DNA of 32,721 nt from Paludibacteraceae bacterium (GTDB lineage Bacteria; Bacteroidota; Bacteroidia; Bacteroidales; Paludibacteraceae): contig CAJOFT010000008.1 of NCBI GenBank assembly GCA_905234025.1, positions 1-32,721 of the forward strand, written 5' to 3'. Of the stretch, positions 2,559 through 23,539 are shown piece by piece (within the stretch, counting starts at the first letter, position 1; every line of letters begins with the position of its first letter). A model generated the notes under the pieces. The model had not been told where the DNA came from, searched no databases, and was given only the letters and a program-made list of their open reading frames with translations. Made by a program: the position numbers and the translations under genes.

Positions 2559-3551
2559 TTATAAGGTTTTTAGATATTTGTCTGCATCAAGTGCCGCCTT
2601 GCAGCCGGAGCCCGCCGCCACAACTGCCTGACGGTAACGCGGGTCGCAGCAATCGCCAGCGGCGAAAACTCCTGTGGCGATGTTGGATGTTTGACCGCTT
2701 CGCTGTTGGACGTTGGCGGTCAGACATTCCTGCGTACCGGGAGTGGTGAGCAGGTAGCCTTCTTCGTTCATGGCAAGCTGGTCGCGGAACAGTTGCGTGT
2801 TCGGGTGATGCCCGATGGCAAGGAAGAAACCGTCAATGGCGATATGATGAATCTGCTCGTCCGGCTCGCCCTTGCGGTAAACGAGGTCTGCGCCTTGCAC
2901 TTTGCCTTCGCCGGTCAACTGAAGGGTATTATGCTCAAAGAGGACTTCAATCTTGGGATTGTTCAGCACACGGTCCTGCATAATCTGTGAGGCGCGGAGG
3001 AATGGTTTGCGGACAATGAGATAAACCTTTTCGCAGAGGTTCGCAAGGTATTGCGCCTCCTCACAAGCCGTGTCACCGCCACCGACCACAGCCACGGTTT
3101 TCTTGCGATAGAAGAAGCCGTCACAGGTGGCGCAGGCACTGACACCGCGACCACGGTATGTTGTCTCGGACGGTAACCCGAGGTACTTGGCAGAAGCACC
3201 GGTAGCGATGATGAGAGCTTTGGTCTCGTATAAGTCGGTATCCTCGACCCAAATCTTGTGCGGAGTGTCAAGTTCGACTTTGGTCACTACGCCGGAGATA
3301 AAGGTTGTGCCGAAACGCTCCGCCTGACGACGGAGGTCGTCCATCATCTGGAACGGCTCCACGCCATCGGGATAGCCGGGGAAGTTCTCAACTTCGGTAG
3401 TGGTCATCAGTTGTCCGCCGAGTTGCGGACCTTCAATGAGCACTGGATTCAAATTGGCACGCGCCGCATAAATAGCGGCGGTATATCCGGCAGGTCCGGA
3501 ACCGATGATAATCAAGTTATGCACGTTATTGTTCATGTATTGTTTTTTCAA
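2559..3551 (-). CDS. trxB: Thioredoxin-disulfide reductase
   Basis: GSGPAGYTAAIYAARA, CATCDG redox motif, GGGDTACEEA and GVFAAGD motifs. The start may be the internal MNNNVHNLIIIGSGPAG. Confidence 0.95.
   Translation of the reverse strand: MKKQYMNNNVHNLIIIGSGPAGYTAAIYAARANLNPVLIEGPQLGGQLMTTTEVENFPGYPDGVEPFQMMDDLRRQAERFGTTFISGVVTKVELDTPHKIWVEDTDLYETKALIIATGASAKYLGLPSETTYRGRGVSACATCDGFFYRKKTVAVVGGGDTACEEAQYLANLCEKVYLIVRKPFLRASQIMQDRVLNNPKIEVLFEHNTLQLTGEGKVQGADLVYRKGEPDEQIHHIAIDGFFLAIGHHPNTQLFRDQLAMNEEGYLLTTPGTQECLTANVQQRSGQTSNIATGVFAAGDCCDPRYRQAVVAAGSGCKAALDADKYLKTL
2682..2720 (+). repeat. Repeat element inside trxB: GTTGGATG TTTGACCG CTTCGCT GTTGGACG TTGGCGGT
   Basis: Two GTTGGA(T/C)G units 23 bp apart with TGACCGC/GCGGTCA ends; encodes extra residues (ECLTANVQQRSGQTSNIAT) just before the conserved GVFAAGD. 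Similar DNA occurs at 20157-20204 on the other strand. Confidence 0.65.
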
Positions 3552-9322: not shown

Positions 9323-9354
9323 AAATGATTAAATGAGAAAATAAGAAAATGAAT
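9323..9354 (+). repeat. Period-8 repeat in the rnfC-rnfD spacer, running into the rnfD start codon
   Basis: AAATGATT AAATGAGA AAATAAGA AAATGAAT; the rnfD ATG (9349) lies in the last unit. Confidence 0.75.
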
Positions 9355-10347
9355 AAATTGATTGTTTCTCCGGCGCCTCACACCCATAGCGGTGACAGTG
9401 TGCGCAGAAATATGTTACTCGTGATTTTGGCGCTTGTGCCTGCGTTTGCCGTTTCAATGGCGGCATTCGGCTGGGGCGTGCTTATCACGACCGCCATCAG
9501 CATCGCAGCCTGTGTCGGCTTCGAGTGGCTGATTGCGAAGTTCATTCTCAAACAAGAACCGACCATCGGCGATCTTTCCGCTGTATTGACGGGCTTGCTG
9601 CTGGCATTCAACCTGCCGAGCAACCTGCCATGGTGGATTGTCATTATCGGCGCATTTGTCGCCATTGCAATCGGCAAAATGTCGTTTGGCGGACTTGGGC
9701 AGAACCTTTTCAATCCGGCATTGGTCGGACGTGTGTTCCTGCTCATTTCATTCCCTGTACAGATGACCACTTGGCCGCGTCCGTTGGGATTTGTGACAGG
9801 TTATATTGATGCCGCAACAGGTGCCACACCGCTTGCCGCCATGAAGCAAATCGTCAAAGGCGGCGACGCTTCTGCAATTGGCAAACTTCCCGAACTGTGG
9901 GATTCGTTCATTGGTCTGGTTGGCGGTTCATTCGGTGAGGTTTGTGCATTGGCGCTTATTCTGGGCGGTTTGTTGCTGATTGTCACTCGCGTCATCACAT
10001 GGCATATACCGGTTTCTGTACTCGCAACGGCAGCACTCTTTGCGGCTGTAACAGGCTTGTGTGGCGGACTTCCTGAAGGTTTCGGCACCGGTGAGTATGT
10101 GCTGATGACCCTTTGCACCGGTGGTTTGATGTTGGGTGCTTTCTTCATGGCAACCGATTACGTCACTTCTCCAATGAGTGCCTGGGGCAAGATTATCTTC
10201 GGCGTAGGCATTGGCTTTATCGCAATGGTAATCCGTACGTGGGGCGCATATCCCGAAGGCGTTTCTTTTGCGATTCTGATTATGAACGCCTGTGTACCTT
10301 TGTTGAACAAGATTCGCCCGAAACGCTTCGGCGAGCAAAAAAAGTAA
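9349..10347 (+). CDS. rnfD: Electron transport complex subunit RnfD
   Basis: 332 aa polytopic protein with SPAPHTHSGDSVRRNM start, FGGLGQNLFNPALVGRVFLL, TGATPL flavin-attachment-like motif. Confidence 0.96.
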   Translation: MNKLIVSPAPHTHSGDSVRRNMLLVILALVPAFAVSMAAFGWGVLITTAISIAACVGFEWLIAKFILKQEPTIGDLSAVLTGLLLAFNLPSNLPWWIVIIGAFVAIAIGKMSFGGLGQNLFNPALVGRVFLLISFPVQMTTWPRPLGFVTGYIDAATGATPLAAMKQIVKGGDASAIGKLPELWDSFIGLVGGSFGEVCALALILGGLLLIVTRVITWHIPVSVLATAALFAAVTGLCGGLPEGFGTGEYVLMTLCTGGLMLGAFFMATDYVTSPMSAWGKIIFGVGIGFIAMVIRTWGAYPEGVSFAILIMNACVPLLNKIRPKRFGEQKK

Positions 10348-16773: not shown

Positions 16774-17190
16774 ATGGCTAAAAAACTCATTGTATCCGTA
16801 TTTTTGACGCTCTTTGTAGCAGGAGCTATGGCACAAGGCGTCTCGTATATCACCACGCAGCAGTTCAAAGAGAAAATCTTTGATTATGCGAATGAAAAAG
16901 ACTGGAAATATCTCGGCACAACTCCTTGTGTGGTGGATTTCTACACCACTTGGTGCGGTCCTTGCAAACGCTTGGCGCCGATTATGGAGGAGCTCGCACA
17001 AGAGTACAAAGGCAAAGTCAATTTCTACAAAGCAGATACGGAGCAGGAGCGCGAATTGGCGTACGTGTTCCAGATTTCCAGCATTCCGCAGGTCCTCTAT
17101 GTGCCGAAAGAGGGACAACCTATTCTGCTCAAAGGACTCTATCCAAAAGAGGAAATCATGAAGATTATCGACGAGCATCTTCTCAAATGA
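16774..17190 (+). CDS. Periplasmic thioredoxin-fold protein
   Basis: Signal peptide MAKKLIVSVFLTLFVAGAMAQ; VVDFYTTWCGPCKRLAPIMEELA; SSIPQVLYV cis-Pro motif. Confidence 0.92.
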   Translation: MAKKLIVSVFLTLFVAGAMAQGVSYITTQQFKEKIFDYANEKDWKYLGTTPCVVDFYTTWCGPCKRLAPIMEELAQEYKGKVNFYKADTEQERELAYVFQISSIPQVLYVPKEGQPILLKGLYPKEEIMKIIDEHLLK

Positions 17191-17232
17191 AAAAATGGGT
17201 AAATGCGAAAATGAGCAAATGCGAAAATCCTA
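17185..17232 (+). repeat. Period-8 repeat spanning the thioredoxin stop codon and the spacer before the antiporter gene
   Basis: AAATGAAA AAATGGGT AAATGCGA AAATGAGC AAATGCGA AAATCCTA (then AACTCTCC); stop TGA at 17188-17190 lies in unit 1. Confidence 0.8.
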
Positions 17233-17239
17233 ACTCTCC

Positions 17240-18868
17240 GTGTCTGTTGAATTTGTCCTGCTGATATTGTCGCTTCTGTTTTTTGCCAGTATTTTTACTG
17301 ACAAAATCGGTTACCGTTTCGGCGTTCCGGCATTGTTGCTGTTTTTGGCGGTCGGAATGTTCTTCGGACCGAATGGGGTAGGAGCTTGGTTCGGTTCTGA
17401 CGGAATCGGCTATATGCTGGATGTGAGCAGCGCGCAGGCTATCGGAACGGTGGCATTGTGTGTGATTCTGTTCTCCGGCGGCTTGGACACGAAGATTGCG
17501 GACATACAGCCCGTCTTTGCGCCCGGAATTACATTGGCTACTGTTGGCGTATTGCTCACCTGTGTTATCTCCGGCGTACTGATATATCTTATTTTCGGCT
17601 GGATGCATGCCATTGCATCCGTGAGCATATGGACAGCGCTCCTTATGGCGGCTACAATGTCCTCCACGGATTCGGCAAGCGTGTTCTCCATTCTGCGTAC
17701 CAACGGACTGAAACTCAAGCATAATCTGCGTCCGTTGTTGGAGTTGGAATCCGGCGCGAACGACCCGATGGCGTATATTCTGACCATCACACTCATCGAA
17801 ATCGTGAAGAACGATTCGATGGAAATAAGCGGATTAGCCATCTTCCAGGATATACTTGTGCAACTCGTCATGGGCGCGGTCATGGGCTTCCTCTTCGGCA
17901 AGTTCATCGTGTGGTTGCTCAACCGCGCAGACCTCAGCAACGAGAGCCTTTACCCGATTATGGTGCTCACGGCATGTATTTTCATTTTTGCTGCCACTTA
18001 CTATCTCAAAGGCAATCCCTATCTCGCGGTATATATCGGCGGACTGATTATCGGAAACAGCAAGTTCACCCGCAAACGCCAGACCAAATCGTTCTTTGAC
18101 GGACTGACGTGGCTCAGCCAGTTGGTGATGTTCCTCATGCTTGGTCTGATGGTGCGGCCGGTGGAACTTTTCAAACCCGAAGTGTGGCTGGCGTCATTCA
18201 TCATCTCGATTGTCATGGTGGTGTTCTCGCGGCCGTTCAGTGTCATGCTCTGCCTGCTGCCGTTCAAGCAGTTCAAGCAGGCGGACAGGCTGTTTGTCAG
18301 TTGGGTGGGGTTAAAAGGAGCCGTGCCGATTATCTTCGCAATCCTGTGCATGGCAAACGGCTTGCCGCATGCAGATATCGTGTTCAATGTGGTGTTCACA
18401 TGTACGATTGTTTCGCTCCTTGTGCAAGGCACAACGCTCAGCGCGATGGCGCGCAAGCTCAAATTGGTGCAGGCGGGAGACCCGAAAAAGAACAGACTCC
18501 AGTACTTCGACCTTGACCTGCCGGAGGAAATCGAATCCTCTGCCCGCGAACGGATAGTGGATGAAGCACTGATCCGGAACGGCTGCAAACTCAGGGAGAT
18601 TGCCATTCCCGAACATACACTGGTGATTATGGTCCGCCGCGAAGACACGTTCTTTGTGCCCAAGGGCGACACCGAACTGCAACTCAATGATGTACTGCTT
18701 GTCATTTCGGACAACAATGCTGAGAAAGTCGTGCAGGACCTTGAAGATGAAGAGTCTGAAATCCTTATGCACTGGTGGATGGACTTCACACGCCACACAG
18801 GACGTTTTATCAAAGTCCGCTGGCGCAAACTCATCGAAGATCAGAAAAAACGAAAAAAAACAATATGA
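17240..18868 (+). CDS. CPA-type potassium/proton antiporter (NhaP2/CvrA-like) with C-terminal TrkA_C domain
   Basis: 542 aa from GTG start; GVPALLLFLAVGMFFGPNGVG, ATMSSTDSASVFSILR, LELESGANDPMAYILT, WVGLKGAVPIIFA; C-terminal IPEHTLVIMVRREDTFFVPKGDTELQLNDVLLVI. Confidence 0.93.
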   Translation: MSVEFVLLILSLLFFASIFTDKIGYRFGVPALLLFLAVGMFFGPNGVGAWFGSDGIGYMLDVSSAQAIGTVALCVILFSGGLDTKIADIQPVFAPGITLATVGVLLTCVISGVLIYLIFGWMHAIASVSIWTALLMAATMSSTDSASVFSILRTNGLKLKHNLRPLLELESGANDPMAYILTITLIEIVKNDSMEISGLAIFQDILVQLVMGAVMGFLFGKFIVWLLNRADLSNESLYPIMVLTACIFIFAATYYLKGNPYLAVYIGGLIIGNSKFTRKRQTKSFFDGLTWLSQLVMFLMLGLMVRPVELFKPEVWLASFIISIVMVVFSRPFSVMLCLLPFKQFKQADRLFVSWVGLKGAVPIIFAILCMANGLPHADIVFNVVFTCTIVSLLVQGTTLSAMARKLKLVQAGDPKKNRLQYFDLDLPEEIESSARERIVDEALIRNGCKLREIAIPEHTLVIMVRREDTFFVPKGDTELQLNDVLLVISDNNAEKVVQDLEDEESEILMHWWMDFTRHTGRFIKVRWRKLIEDQKKRKKTI

Positions 18869-20475
18869 AAACGGTAGTTTTCTTAACCGGTGCGACCGGC
18901 ACGATGGGCTGGGCGGGTGTGCAGGAGATTCTGCGCTTCCCCGACAGATATACGTTGCGCGTGCTGGCGCGTCCGTCGCAGAAGAACAAGCAGAAACTCA
19001 CACCTTATATCAATGCCTTTGCGGAGGATACATTCCAGGTTGTTTGGGGCGACCTCACGTCCTATGACGATGTGCTCAAAGGTGTTACGGGGGCGGACAT
19101 CGTGCTGCATGTCGGCGGCATGGTTTCACCGCAGGCGGATTATCGTCCCAAAGCGACCCGCAAGACCAATCTCGCAGCCGCAACATACGTCCGGGACGCT
19201 GTGCTTGCGCAACCTGCGGACAAACAGCCGAAAGTGGTCTATGTCGGCTCTGTAGCGCAAATGGGCGACCGCCGCGAACCGCTTCACTGGGGACGCGCAG
19301 GCGACCCGATATGTGTTAGCGCCTATGACCACTACGGGCTCACCAAAGCATGGGCGGAACGTATCATCACCGACTCCGGCATCAAGAATTGGGTCTCGCT
19401 CCGTCAGTCAGGTATTCTCTATCCCGCAATTCTCAAAAACTATGACCCGATCATGTTCCATGTGCCTGTGCGTGGCGTGCTGGAGTGGGCGACAGTGGAG
19501 GACAGCGGACGGCTCCTGGAACGCATCTGCCGACCGACCGTGCCTGCGGAGTTCTGGAAGAACTATTATAACATCGGGTCAGGCGAACAGTACCGCATCT
19601 CGAACTATGAGTTTGAGTGCCTGCTGTTGGACGCTATCGGCTGCCCGAGACCCGAAAAGATATTCAATGCCAACTGGTTCACCACGCGCAATTTCCACGG
19701 TATGTGGTATCTGGACAGCGACAAACTGGAGGACTTCCTGCACTTCCGTGCCAACGTGCCCATTAAGGATTATTTCCGCCAATTGGCGAAGTCAGACACG
19801 GTGCCGTGGGGCATCAAGTTCGCATCCAAGACCCACATAGCGAAACTCGTGCCGCATATGGTCAAACTCGCAATGCGAAAGATGGCTAACTCCGAGGAGC
19901 ATGGTACGCAACGCTGGATAAAAGACCTGAACGCACAGGACGAATCCCGCAGGAAGAAAGCTGCACTGCGTGTGGCAGCCTATTACGGATCCTATGAAGC
20001 ATACAAGGCTATTCCCGATTGGAAGCATATGGATCTCTCGCATAACAGCAGCAAAGCGGTCATTATGAACCACGGCTATGACGAATCCAAATCGCTCTCC
20101 GAACTGACGCTTGCAGACATGCAGAAAGCTGCAGAGTTCCGCGGCGGCAAGTGCCTCGGTCTAACTTCCAACAGCGCCAGCGGTCTCACTTCCAACAGTC
20201 CGAAGGACGGTCACTTGTTGGACGCGCAACTCGTTTGGCAATGTGCCCAAGGGCACACCTTCAAGGCTTCGCCGCGGCTCATCCTGCTTGGTGGGCACTG
20301 GTGTCCCGACTGCTTCCCGTGGCCTTATGCCGACACGGATAAACCGGTGAACCCATGGAACTGGGACGCCGAAGCCAAGCGCAATCCGTTCTTTGCACAA
20401 CTCTGGAGTCCGCTTCACGATGTCAGTGAAAACAATACCTACGGACCCGAAATATTTGACGGTTGGGAGAAATAA
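18865..20475 (+). CDS. NAD-dependent epimerase/dehydratase family protein with C-terminal zinc-ribbon-like extension
   Basis: MKTVVFLTGATGTMGWAGVQEIL Rossmann motif, YDHYGLTKAWAE active-site YxxxK; C-terminal CAQGHTF...HWCPDC. Starts at the ATGA overlap with the antiporter (ORF track start 18775 is upstream). Confidence 0.88.
   Translation: MKTVVFLTGATGTMGWAGVQEILRFPDRYTLRVLARPSQKNKQKLTPYINAFAEDTFQVVWGDLTSYDDVLKGVTGADIVLHVGGMVSPQADYRPKATRKTNLAAATYVRDAVLAQPADKQPKVVYVGSVAQMGDRREPLHWGRAGDPICVSAYDHYGLTKAWAERIITDSGIKNWVSLRQSGILYPAILKNYDPIMFHVPVRGVLEWATVEDSGRLLERICRPTVPAEFWKNYYNIGSGEQYRISNYEFECLLLDAIGCPRPEKIFNANWFTTRNFHGMWYLDSDKLEDFLHFRANVPIKDYFRQLAKSDTVPWGIKFASKTHIAKLVPHMVKLAMRKMANSEEHGTQRWIKDLNAQDESRRKKAALRVAAYYGSYEAYKAIPDWKHMDLSHNSSKAVIMNHGYDESKSLSELTLADMQKAAEFRGGKCLGLTSNSASGLTSNSPKDGHLLDAQLVWQCAQGHTFKASPRLILLGGHWCPDCFPWPYADTDKPVNPWNWDAEAKRNPFFAQLWSPLHDVSENNTYGPEIFDGWEK
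20157..20204 (-). repeat. Tandem 2 x 24-bp repeat inside the epimerase gene (minus-strand reading GTTGGAAG T(G/T)AGACCG ...)
   Basis: CGGTCTAACTTCCAACAGCGCCAG / CGGTCTCACTTCCAACAGTCCGAA, encoding GLTSNSAS-GLTSNSPK; related to the trxB insert at 2682-2720. Confidence 0.75.
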
Positions 20476-23445: not shown

Positions 23446-23456
23446 CATGAATCTAT

Positions 23457-23539
23457 AACTCGTTAACTCCTTAATTCTCTAACTCATTAACTCCTTAATT
23501 CTCTAACTCATTAACTCCTTAATTCTCTAACTCGTTAAC
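23457..23539. repeat. 3.5 copies of a 24-bp tandem repeat built of three octamers (AACTCRTT AACTCCTT AATTCTCT)
   Basis: Units 23457-23480, 23481-23504, 23505-23528, partial 23529-23539; only a G/A change between copies. Confidence 0.9.

Follow-up and report, generated by a model that had tools for sequence, protein, structure and literature searches.

What kind of repeat interrupts two unrelated genes of a rumen bacterium, and how does it come to lie there in frame? The window considered here, 32,721 nucleotides in length, is contig C8 of a MAG (1.94 Mb in 171 contigs, 79% complete), and a preliminary description of it had reported two 24-bp copies in tandem at 20157-20204, within an epimerase gene, as part of a dispersed repeat that invades coding sequence and is also found in trxB. 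Reading the sequence gave exactly these copies, CGGTCTAACTTCCAACAGCGCCAG at 20157-20180 and CGGTCTCACTTCCAACAGTCCGAA at 20181-20204, both in frame and together encoding GLTSNSASGLTSNSPK. They do not form a plain 24-bp duplication, however, because the second 24-mer ends partway through a hairpin loop, and the array runs on past 20204 as AACA-GTCC-GAA-GGAC-GGTC, the unit being a heptamer plus a hairpin (Table 1). The full order is GGTCTAAC-TTCCAAC-A-[GC GCCA GC]-GGTCTCAC-TTCCAAC-A-[GTCC GAA GGAC]-GGTC (hairpins in brackets), and the hairpin GTCC-GAA-GGAC is also present in the MiaB array on contig C72.

The product of the epimerase-like gene has a CxxxH..CxxC region at its C-terminal side and gives weak 3Beta_HSD and NAD_binding matches, while its AlphaFold model resembles PDB structures of sugar 4,6-dehydratases and epimerases. 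Orthologues were found in 33 of the 37 genomes searched. Residues 436-444 have a pLDDT below 50 and lie between two strands of the model, and the loop that holds the array varies in length among the orthologues. The array in trxB, read on the minus strand as CCAAC-GTCCAAC-A-[GC GAA GC]-GGTCAAAC-ATCCAAC-A, shares the design of the epimerase array, a degenerate heptamer tandem with small hairpins between the heptamers. Here the TrxB loop measures 78 nt, against 36 nt in most congeners, and the insert is an alignment gap against PDB 7e52. In genome G014, the ORF adjoining trxB (L134) has an in-frame insert of its own, AAGAATT and then CAAAATT tandems with a GCTC-CGAC-GAGC hairpin between them, and in two epimerase orthologues (L100 and L109), other loops hold further repeat-like inserts (KVKGERLMVNGERLK; AQLSTFNFQLST).

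Table 1. Host genes, arrays and mini-hairpins located in the window.
Feature	Position	Strand	Basis	Details
Host gene 1, NAD-dependent epimerase/dehydratase-like (extended SDR fold)	18865..20475	+	ORF	
Array in host gene 1	20157..20212	+	Sequence, pattern matches	Encodes GLTSNSASGLTSNSPKDG
Mini-hairpin 1	20174..20181	+	Sequence, linker census	GC-GCCA-GC, GNNA loop
Mini-hairpin 2	20198..20208	+	Sequence	GTCC-GAA-GGAC, GNA loop; partly outside the interval of the preliminary description
Host gene 2, thioredoxin reductase trxB	2562..3551	-	TIGR01292, 349.9 bits, above cut-off	
Array in trxB	2681..2716	-		CCAACGTCCAAC, hairpin GC-GAA-GC, GGTCAAACATCCAACA; encodes roughly ANVQQRSGQTSN
trxB mini-hairpin	2697..2703	-	Sequence, linker census	GC-GAA-GC

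The element is far more abundant than chance allows. Within the window, the core GGTCNNACNTCCAACAG has three matches with at most two mismatches, where 0.13 are expected, and no shuffle reached three. Across the genome, GGTCNNACNTCCAAC has 45 matches with at most one mismatch and 18 exact ones, against 6 and 0 for the reversed pattern; 129 seeds, in 36 clusters, were counted in 626 kb, a sample picked in part for containing matches, against 6 in the reversed DNA. The genome-wide excess over controls that the preliminary description called for is thus large. The heptamers of the element are here the degenerate NTCCAAC and NTCTAAC, and the spacing of the word TCYAAC peaks at 7, 16/17, 23/24 and 30/31 nt, as expected from heptamers with hairpin inserts of 9 or 10 nt. 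An excess of period-7 tandems is general (92 vs. 23 in the genome itself, 85 vs. 13 in G014). Of 25 arrays in the genome itself, 20 are inside ORFs of at least 150 aa; a pooled set of its contigs, G014 stretches and named loci, partly selected by motif, has 75 arrays in ORFs and 120 outside. Other repeats are also present. The window has a 24-bp unit repeated 3.7 times at 23452-23539 (TCTCTAACTCATTAACTCCTTAAT), outside the listed long ORFs and also readable as 8-mers, as well as short 8-mer tandems at or between gene ends (17184-17228 and 9323-9358; AAATGAGA-like and AAATGAGT), and contigs C13, C17, C55, C11 and C42 carry further dispersed heptamer families (ACACCGT/ACACCAT, AAATCGT and AAACGTT). 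The most over-represented 11-mers of the genome sample, e.g., GTACTTTTGCA, resemble the TAnnTTTG promoter element of Bacteroidota.

The hairpins have stems of 2 to 5 bp (GC, GGC, GTCC, GTC, GT, AC, GCC, GACC, GATGG and GCGC were seen), mostly GNA or GNNA loops, and the flanks ACA...GGTC. The stems covary, that is, their sequences differ and the pairing is kept. Among the distinct, flank-defined linkers, the form searched for (GCGNAGC) left out, fully paired ones numbered, against the expectation from reshuffled 3' arms, 19 vs. 8.6 at 7 nt, 13 vs. 3.9 at 9 nt, 11 vs. 1.5 at 11 nt and 6 vs. 0.6 at 13 nt, and among 8-nt linkers with a 4-nt loop, 23 were paired vs. 10.7 expected; these stem counts, like the loop counts, come in part from motif-selected loci and include related copies that are not independent. 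Loops of the form G..A make up 18 of 21 linkers in the genome itself (selected on their flanks). In Kordia, with a pattern that left the loop open, they account for 49 of 75, followed by AAA (21 of 75). Other loops are common among the distinct long stems of the linker comparison. The third base of the tetraloop is mostly C or T, unlike that of RNA GNRA loops. Judged from sequence only, most units, not all, have a GNA or GNNA loop closed by at least two G-C pairs, a combination that makes DNA mini-hairpins extraordinarily stable (78 C for GCGAAGC; PMC4686876). The d(GCGNAGC) and d(GCGNNAGC) mini-hairpins share the stem and loop design of the genomic element, but were described for synthetic DNA use and not as a genomic repeat (PMC4686876). 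Nearest-neighbour folding neither found our hairpins unusually stable nor separated the two strands, so their special stability is argued from the similar published oligonucleotides and from the sequence.

Distribution goes beyond the source species, an extension of what had been proposed. At least 120 GTDB stretches match a 22-nt pattern, and every named match listed belongs to Bacteroidota. Most of them are Paludibacteraceae or Bacteroidales MAGs, joined by Kordia, Tenacibaculum, Mesonia, Acidiluteibacter, Saprospiraceae and other Flavobacteriales. The rarity of GGTCNNACNTCCAAC in the genus suggested a species-specific element, which was ruled out by the looser hairpin motif ACAGCGNAGCGGTC, found in 26 of the 37 genomes that represent this genus of Paludibacteraceae, with 0 to 155 copies per genome (one match in total for the control). 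In the isolate Kordia algicida (G061), 75 matches to the open-loop pattern were found against 0 for the control, and all 12 places examined are outside long ORFs. Hairpin units also form longer clusters in that genome (C1, 1026367-1027062 and 4210645-4211550), with spacings of, e.g., 154 bp. As the element is found both in isolates and in MAGs from several projects, an assembly artefact is improbable. Phage carriage was considered, and one viral contig in IMG/VR matches, right at its end.

Which genes are entered, and where? By NCBIfam and Pfam, sense arrays lie in HtpG, MurF (one unit, without a heptamer tandem), GSCFA (two arrays), ArgRS, IleRS, ValRS, MiaB, RibBA, a MurU-like nucleotidyltransferase, TrxB and the epimerase-like gene; a further sense host, C90:4680, is probably Tex, a name given from its sequence, and its NCBIfam matches are to S1 and helix-hairpin-helix parts only. 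The same orientation relative to the host, as had been claimed, does hold for the trxB copy, which is sense, but is no general rule, for the arrays in RimO, polyprenyl synthetase, PrmA, Mfd (two arrays) and an ABC ATPase are antisense. When loops were compared across the 37 genomes of the genus, the sites in the epimerase, trxB, IleRS and RibBA were shorter or empty in many congeners, which shows that the peptide is no old conserved loop and, together with the excess of copies, supports the idea of a dispersed repeat that invades coding sequence; outside genes, however, it is found as well. The IleRS loop has 69 nt here against 27 nt in many congeners (FHLKDGRYIIAW), its insert being a gap against the solved structure, and the RibBA interdomain linker has 84 nt against 21 nt in L365, L370 and L373. 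At the equivalent RibBA and ArgRS loops, other congeners have related hairpin arrays with different linkers (e.g., GGCGAAGCCGGTCTTTCAGCGAAGCGGTC), and unrelated tandems occupy some congener loops, namely CTCGCCT in ArgRS, GTCGAAA in IleRS and also AAAATT, while in G001 the epimerase site is occupied by a CAGCAGT tandem and the putative Tex site by the hairpin family. The ArgRS loop of G035, G030, G032 and G021 (L316, L319, L324 and L329) has other palindrome-rich inserts (CTCGAGATCTCGA and CCTAGG). The insertion sites are tolerant loops of variable length throughout the genus. Because of this variation, no clean insertion with defined ends could be made out, and each case is one of sequence inserted or replaced in a tolerant loop, not a clean gain of 48 bp.

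Several known repeats resemble the element in part. Cyanobacterial SDR elements are reportedly 21-27 nt long, hairpin-bearing, placed inside tandem heptamers and without a gene of their own; they are also said to be dispersed and to show compensatory stem changes, and a reverse-transcribed RNA intermediate is said to have been proposed for them. Tandem heptamer repeats of cyanobacteria are known as STRR. Judged by this description of SDR, the present element is alike in its covarying hairpins, its arrays in tandem heptamers, its dispersal and its lack of an own gene; it differs in sequence, in its occurrence in Bacteroidota among the matches listed, in stems that are free to change from unit to unit of an array while the ACA..GGTC flanks stay fixed, in its mostly GNA or GNNA loops, and in its many in-frame copies in conserved genes. 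The SDR work (Elhai et al., 2008) is cited in PMC3116915 and PMC4390886. Rickettsia palindromic elements, palindromic repeats of ~150 bp, also insert in frame in unrelated protein genes (PMC10969869), whereas ours is made up of 7-bp units and 7- to ~13-nt hairpins in short direct arrays, with no ~150-bp palindrome. The nearest described repeat that we found for the phylum is the TAACTGA heptamer, likewise a tandem of 7-bp units, abundant, intergenic and present in five Bacteroidetes (PMC4679880), while the heptamers here are degenerate, are interrupted by hairpins and often lie in genes. REP/REPIN sequences are also small dispersed hairpins (PMC3116915), but are mostly extragenic, unlike the 20 of 25 arrays in ORFs noted above. 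By analogy, the element appears to work most like SDR in heptamers and to affect genes like the Rickettsia elements, and is classed with neither. Our literature search found no description of the present element, most subscription papers being outside its coverage.

Why, then, are the arrays in genes mostly sense? In the pooled set, in-gene arrays are sense in 63 cases and antisense in 12, while those between co-oriented genes are neutral (23 same, 31 opposite). This neutrality rules out transcription-coupled insertion and makes it most likely that the in-gene bias reflects the peptides that survive, not the mode of insertion. The stop-free TCC heptamer accounts for 42 of 114 TCC/TCT units in coding sequence vs. 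36 of 186 outside ORFs. A replication-strand bias sought via GC skew was weak (hairpin strand positive in 82 of 194, p 0.04) and is not relied on. One could suppose instead that the inserted peptides are kept by selection for a function, e.g., as linkers or recognition tags, considering the strong sense bias in genes and the similar peptides in unrelated proteins; this is very unlikely, because units occur in each of the three sense frames (64, 46 and 14), congener loops hold unrelated sequence or nothing, and many arrays lie outside genes. Mitochondrial byps are inserts that are skipped by the ribosome. Hairpins within coding sequence recall them, but that the present inserts are skipped likewise is barely conceivable, since those checked are in frame and stop-free, and the flagged IleRS and RibBA orthologues have no interior stops, all of the stops being upstream of the start or past the end.

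Could an enzyme be moving the element? A non-autonomous element that an HUH (Y1/RAYT-like) transposase mobilises in trans would fit the small imperfect hairpins, the dispersed copies and a single-strand logic, all of which resemble REPs (PMC3116915). We nevertheless regard it as unlikely. Neither Y1_Tnp nor RVT_1 has a match in G000, G001, G014, G024, G026 and G034, copy-rich genomes among them; Y1_Tnp has none in G002 either, while G027, with the strongest Y1_Tnp match, has no copy of the element. G014 is 98% complete and G024 carries 155 motif copies, and while the genome of the window is the incomplete one described above, the other copy-bearing genomes without a Y1_Tnp match are 94-98% complete. 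Moreover, the units form direct tandem arrays rather than inverted pairs, and occur freely inside genes. An RNA intermediate and a reverse transcriptase, as proposed for SDR, would suit the length, hairpins and heptamer setting given above for those elements, but is more doubtful still, as RVT_1 is present in only 8 of the 37 genomes, the loops fit DNA GNNA better than RNA GNRA, and orientation is neutral between genes. From the missing matches in copy-bearing genomes, a RAYT or reverse transcriptase seems unneeded in general, absence from incomplete genomes being no proof. Local replication slippage could also have built the arrays from chance seeds with no dispersal at all, as the unrelated heptamer tandems in congener loops (CTCGCCT, GTCGAAA, CAGCAGT and AAAATT) and the general period-7 excess would lead one to expect; the recurrence of one hairpin-plus-heptamer consensus at dozens of unlinked places and in distant Bacteroidota makes this an unlikely account as well.

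The reading that we favour, and consider probable, is that of a non-coding dispersed micro-satellite of mini-hairpins that would spread by slippage and template switching and survive in in-frame loops. Such an element would have no enzyme of its own. Its mini-hairpins would fold when DNA becomes single-stranded during replication or repair, and the folded hairpins, with the 7-bp repeats, would promote slippage and template switching, by which arrays would be lengthened and occasionally copied to new sites. Genes would lose most of the insertions that they receive, and those kept would be in frame and stop-free, in flexible loops, and encode bland sense peptides (SNSEAV and TAQRS). Against slippage and template switching, long-distance spread is harder to explain than local growth, and an uncharacterised trans-acting enzyme, or one encoded in the missing fifth of the MAG, may be responsible for it. 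We give tentative credence to a more radical possibility, a protein-free replicator operating as single-stranded DNA, in which the stems would drift while still paired, the fold only would be selected, host replication would do the copying, and the loops of essential proteins would be continually remodelled within a bacterial family.

Length differences in such loops should be read with caution, as they are no evidence for adaptive domains. If the micro-satellite reading is true, the enzyme-free spread of ~20-nt elements would become directly testable, e.g., in cultured Kordia algicida. The element would then be a clear natural case of tiny non-coding DNA making new protein segments in essential genes, such segments arising in many lineages at homologous loops.
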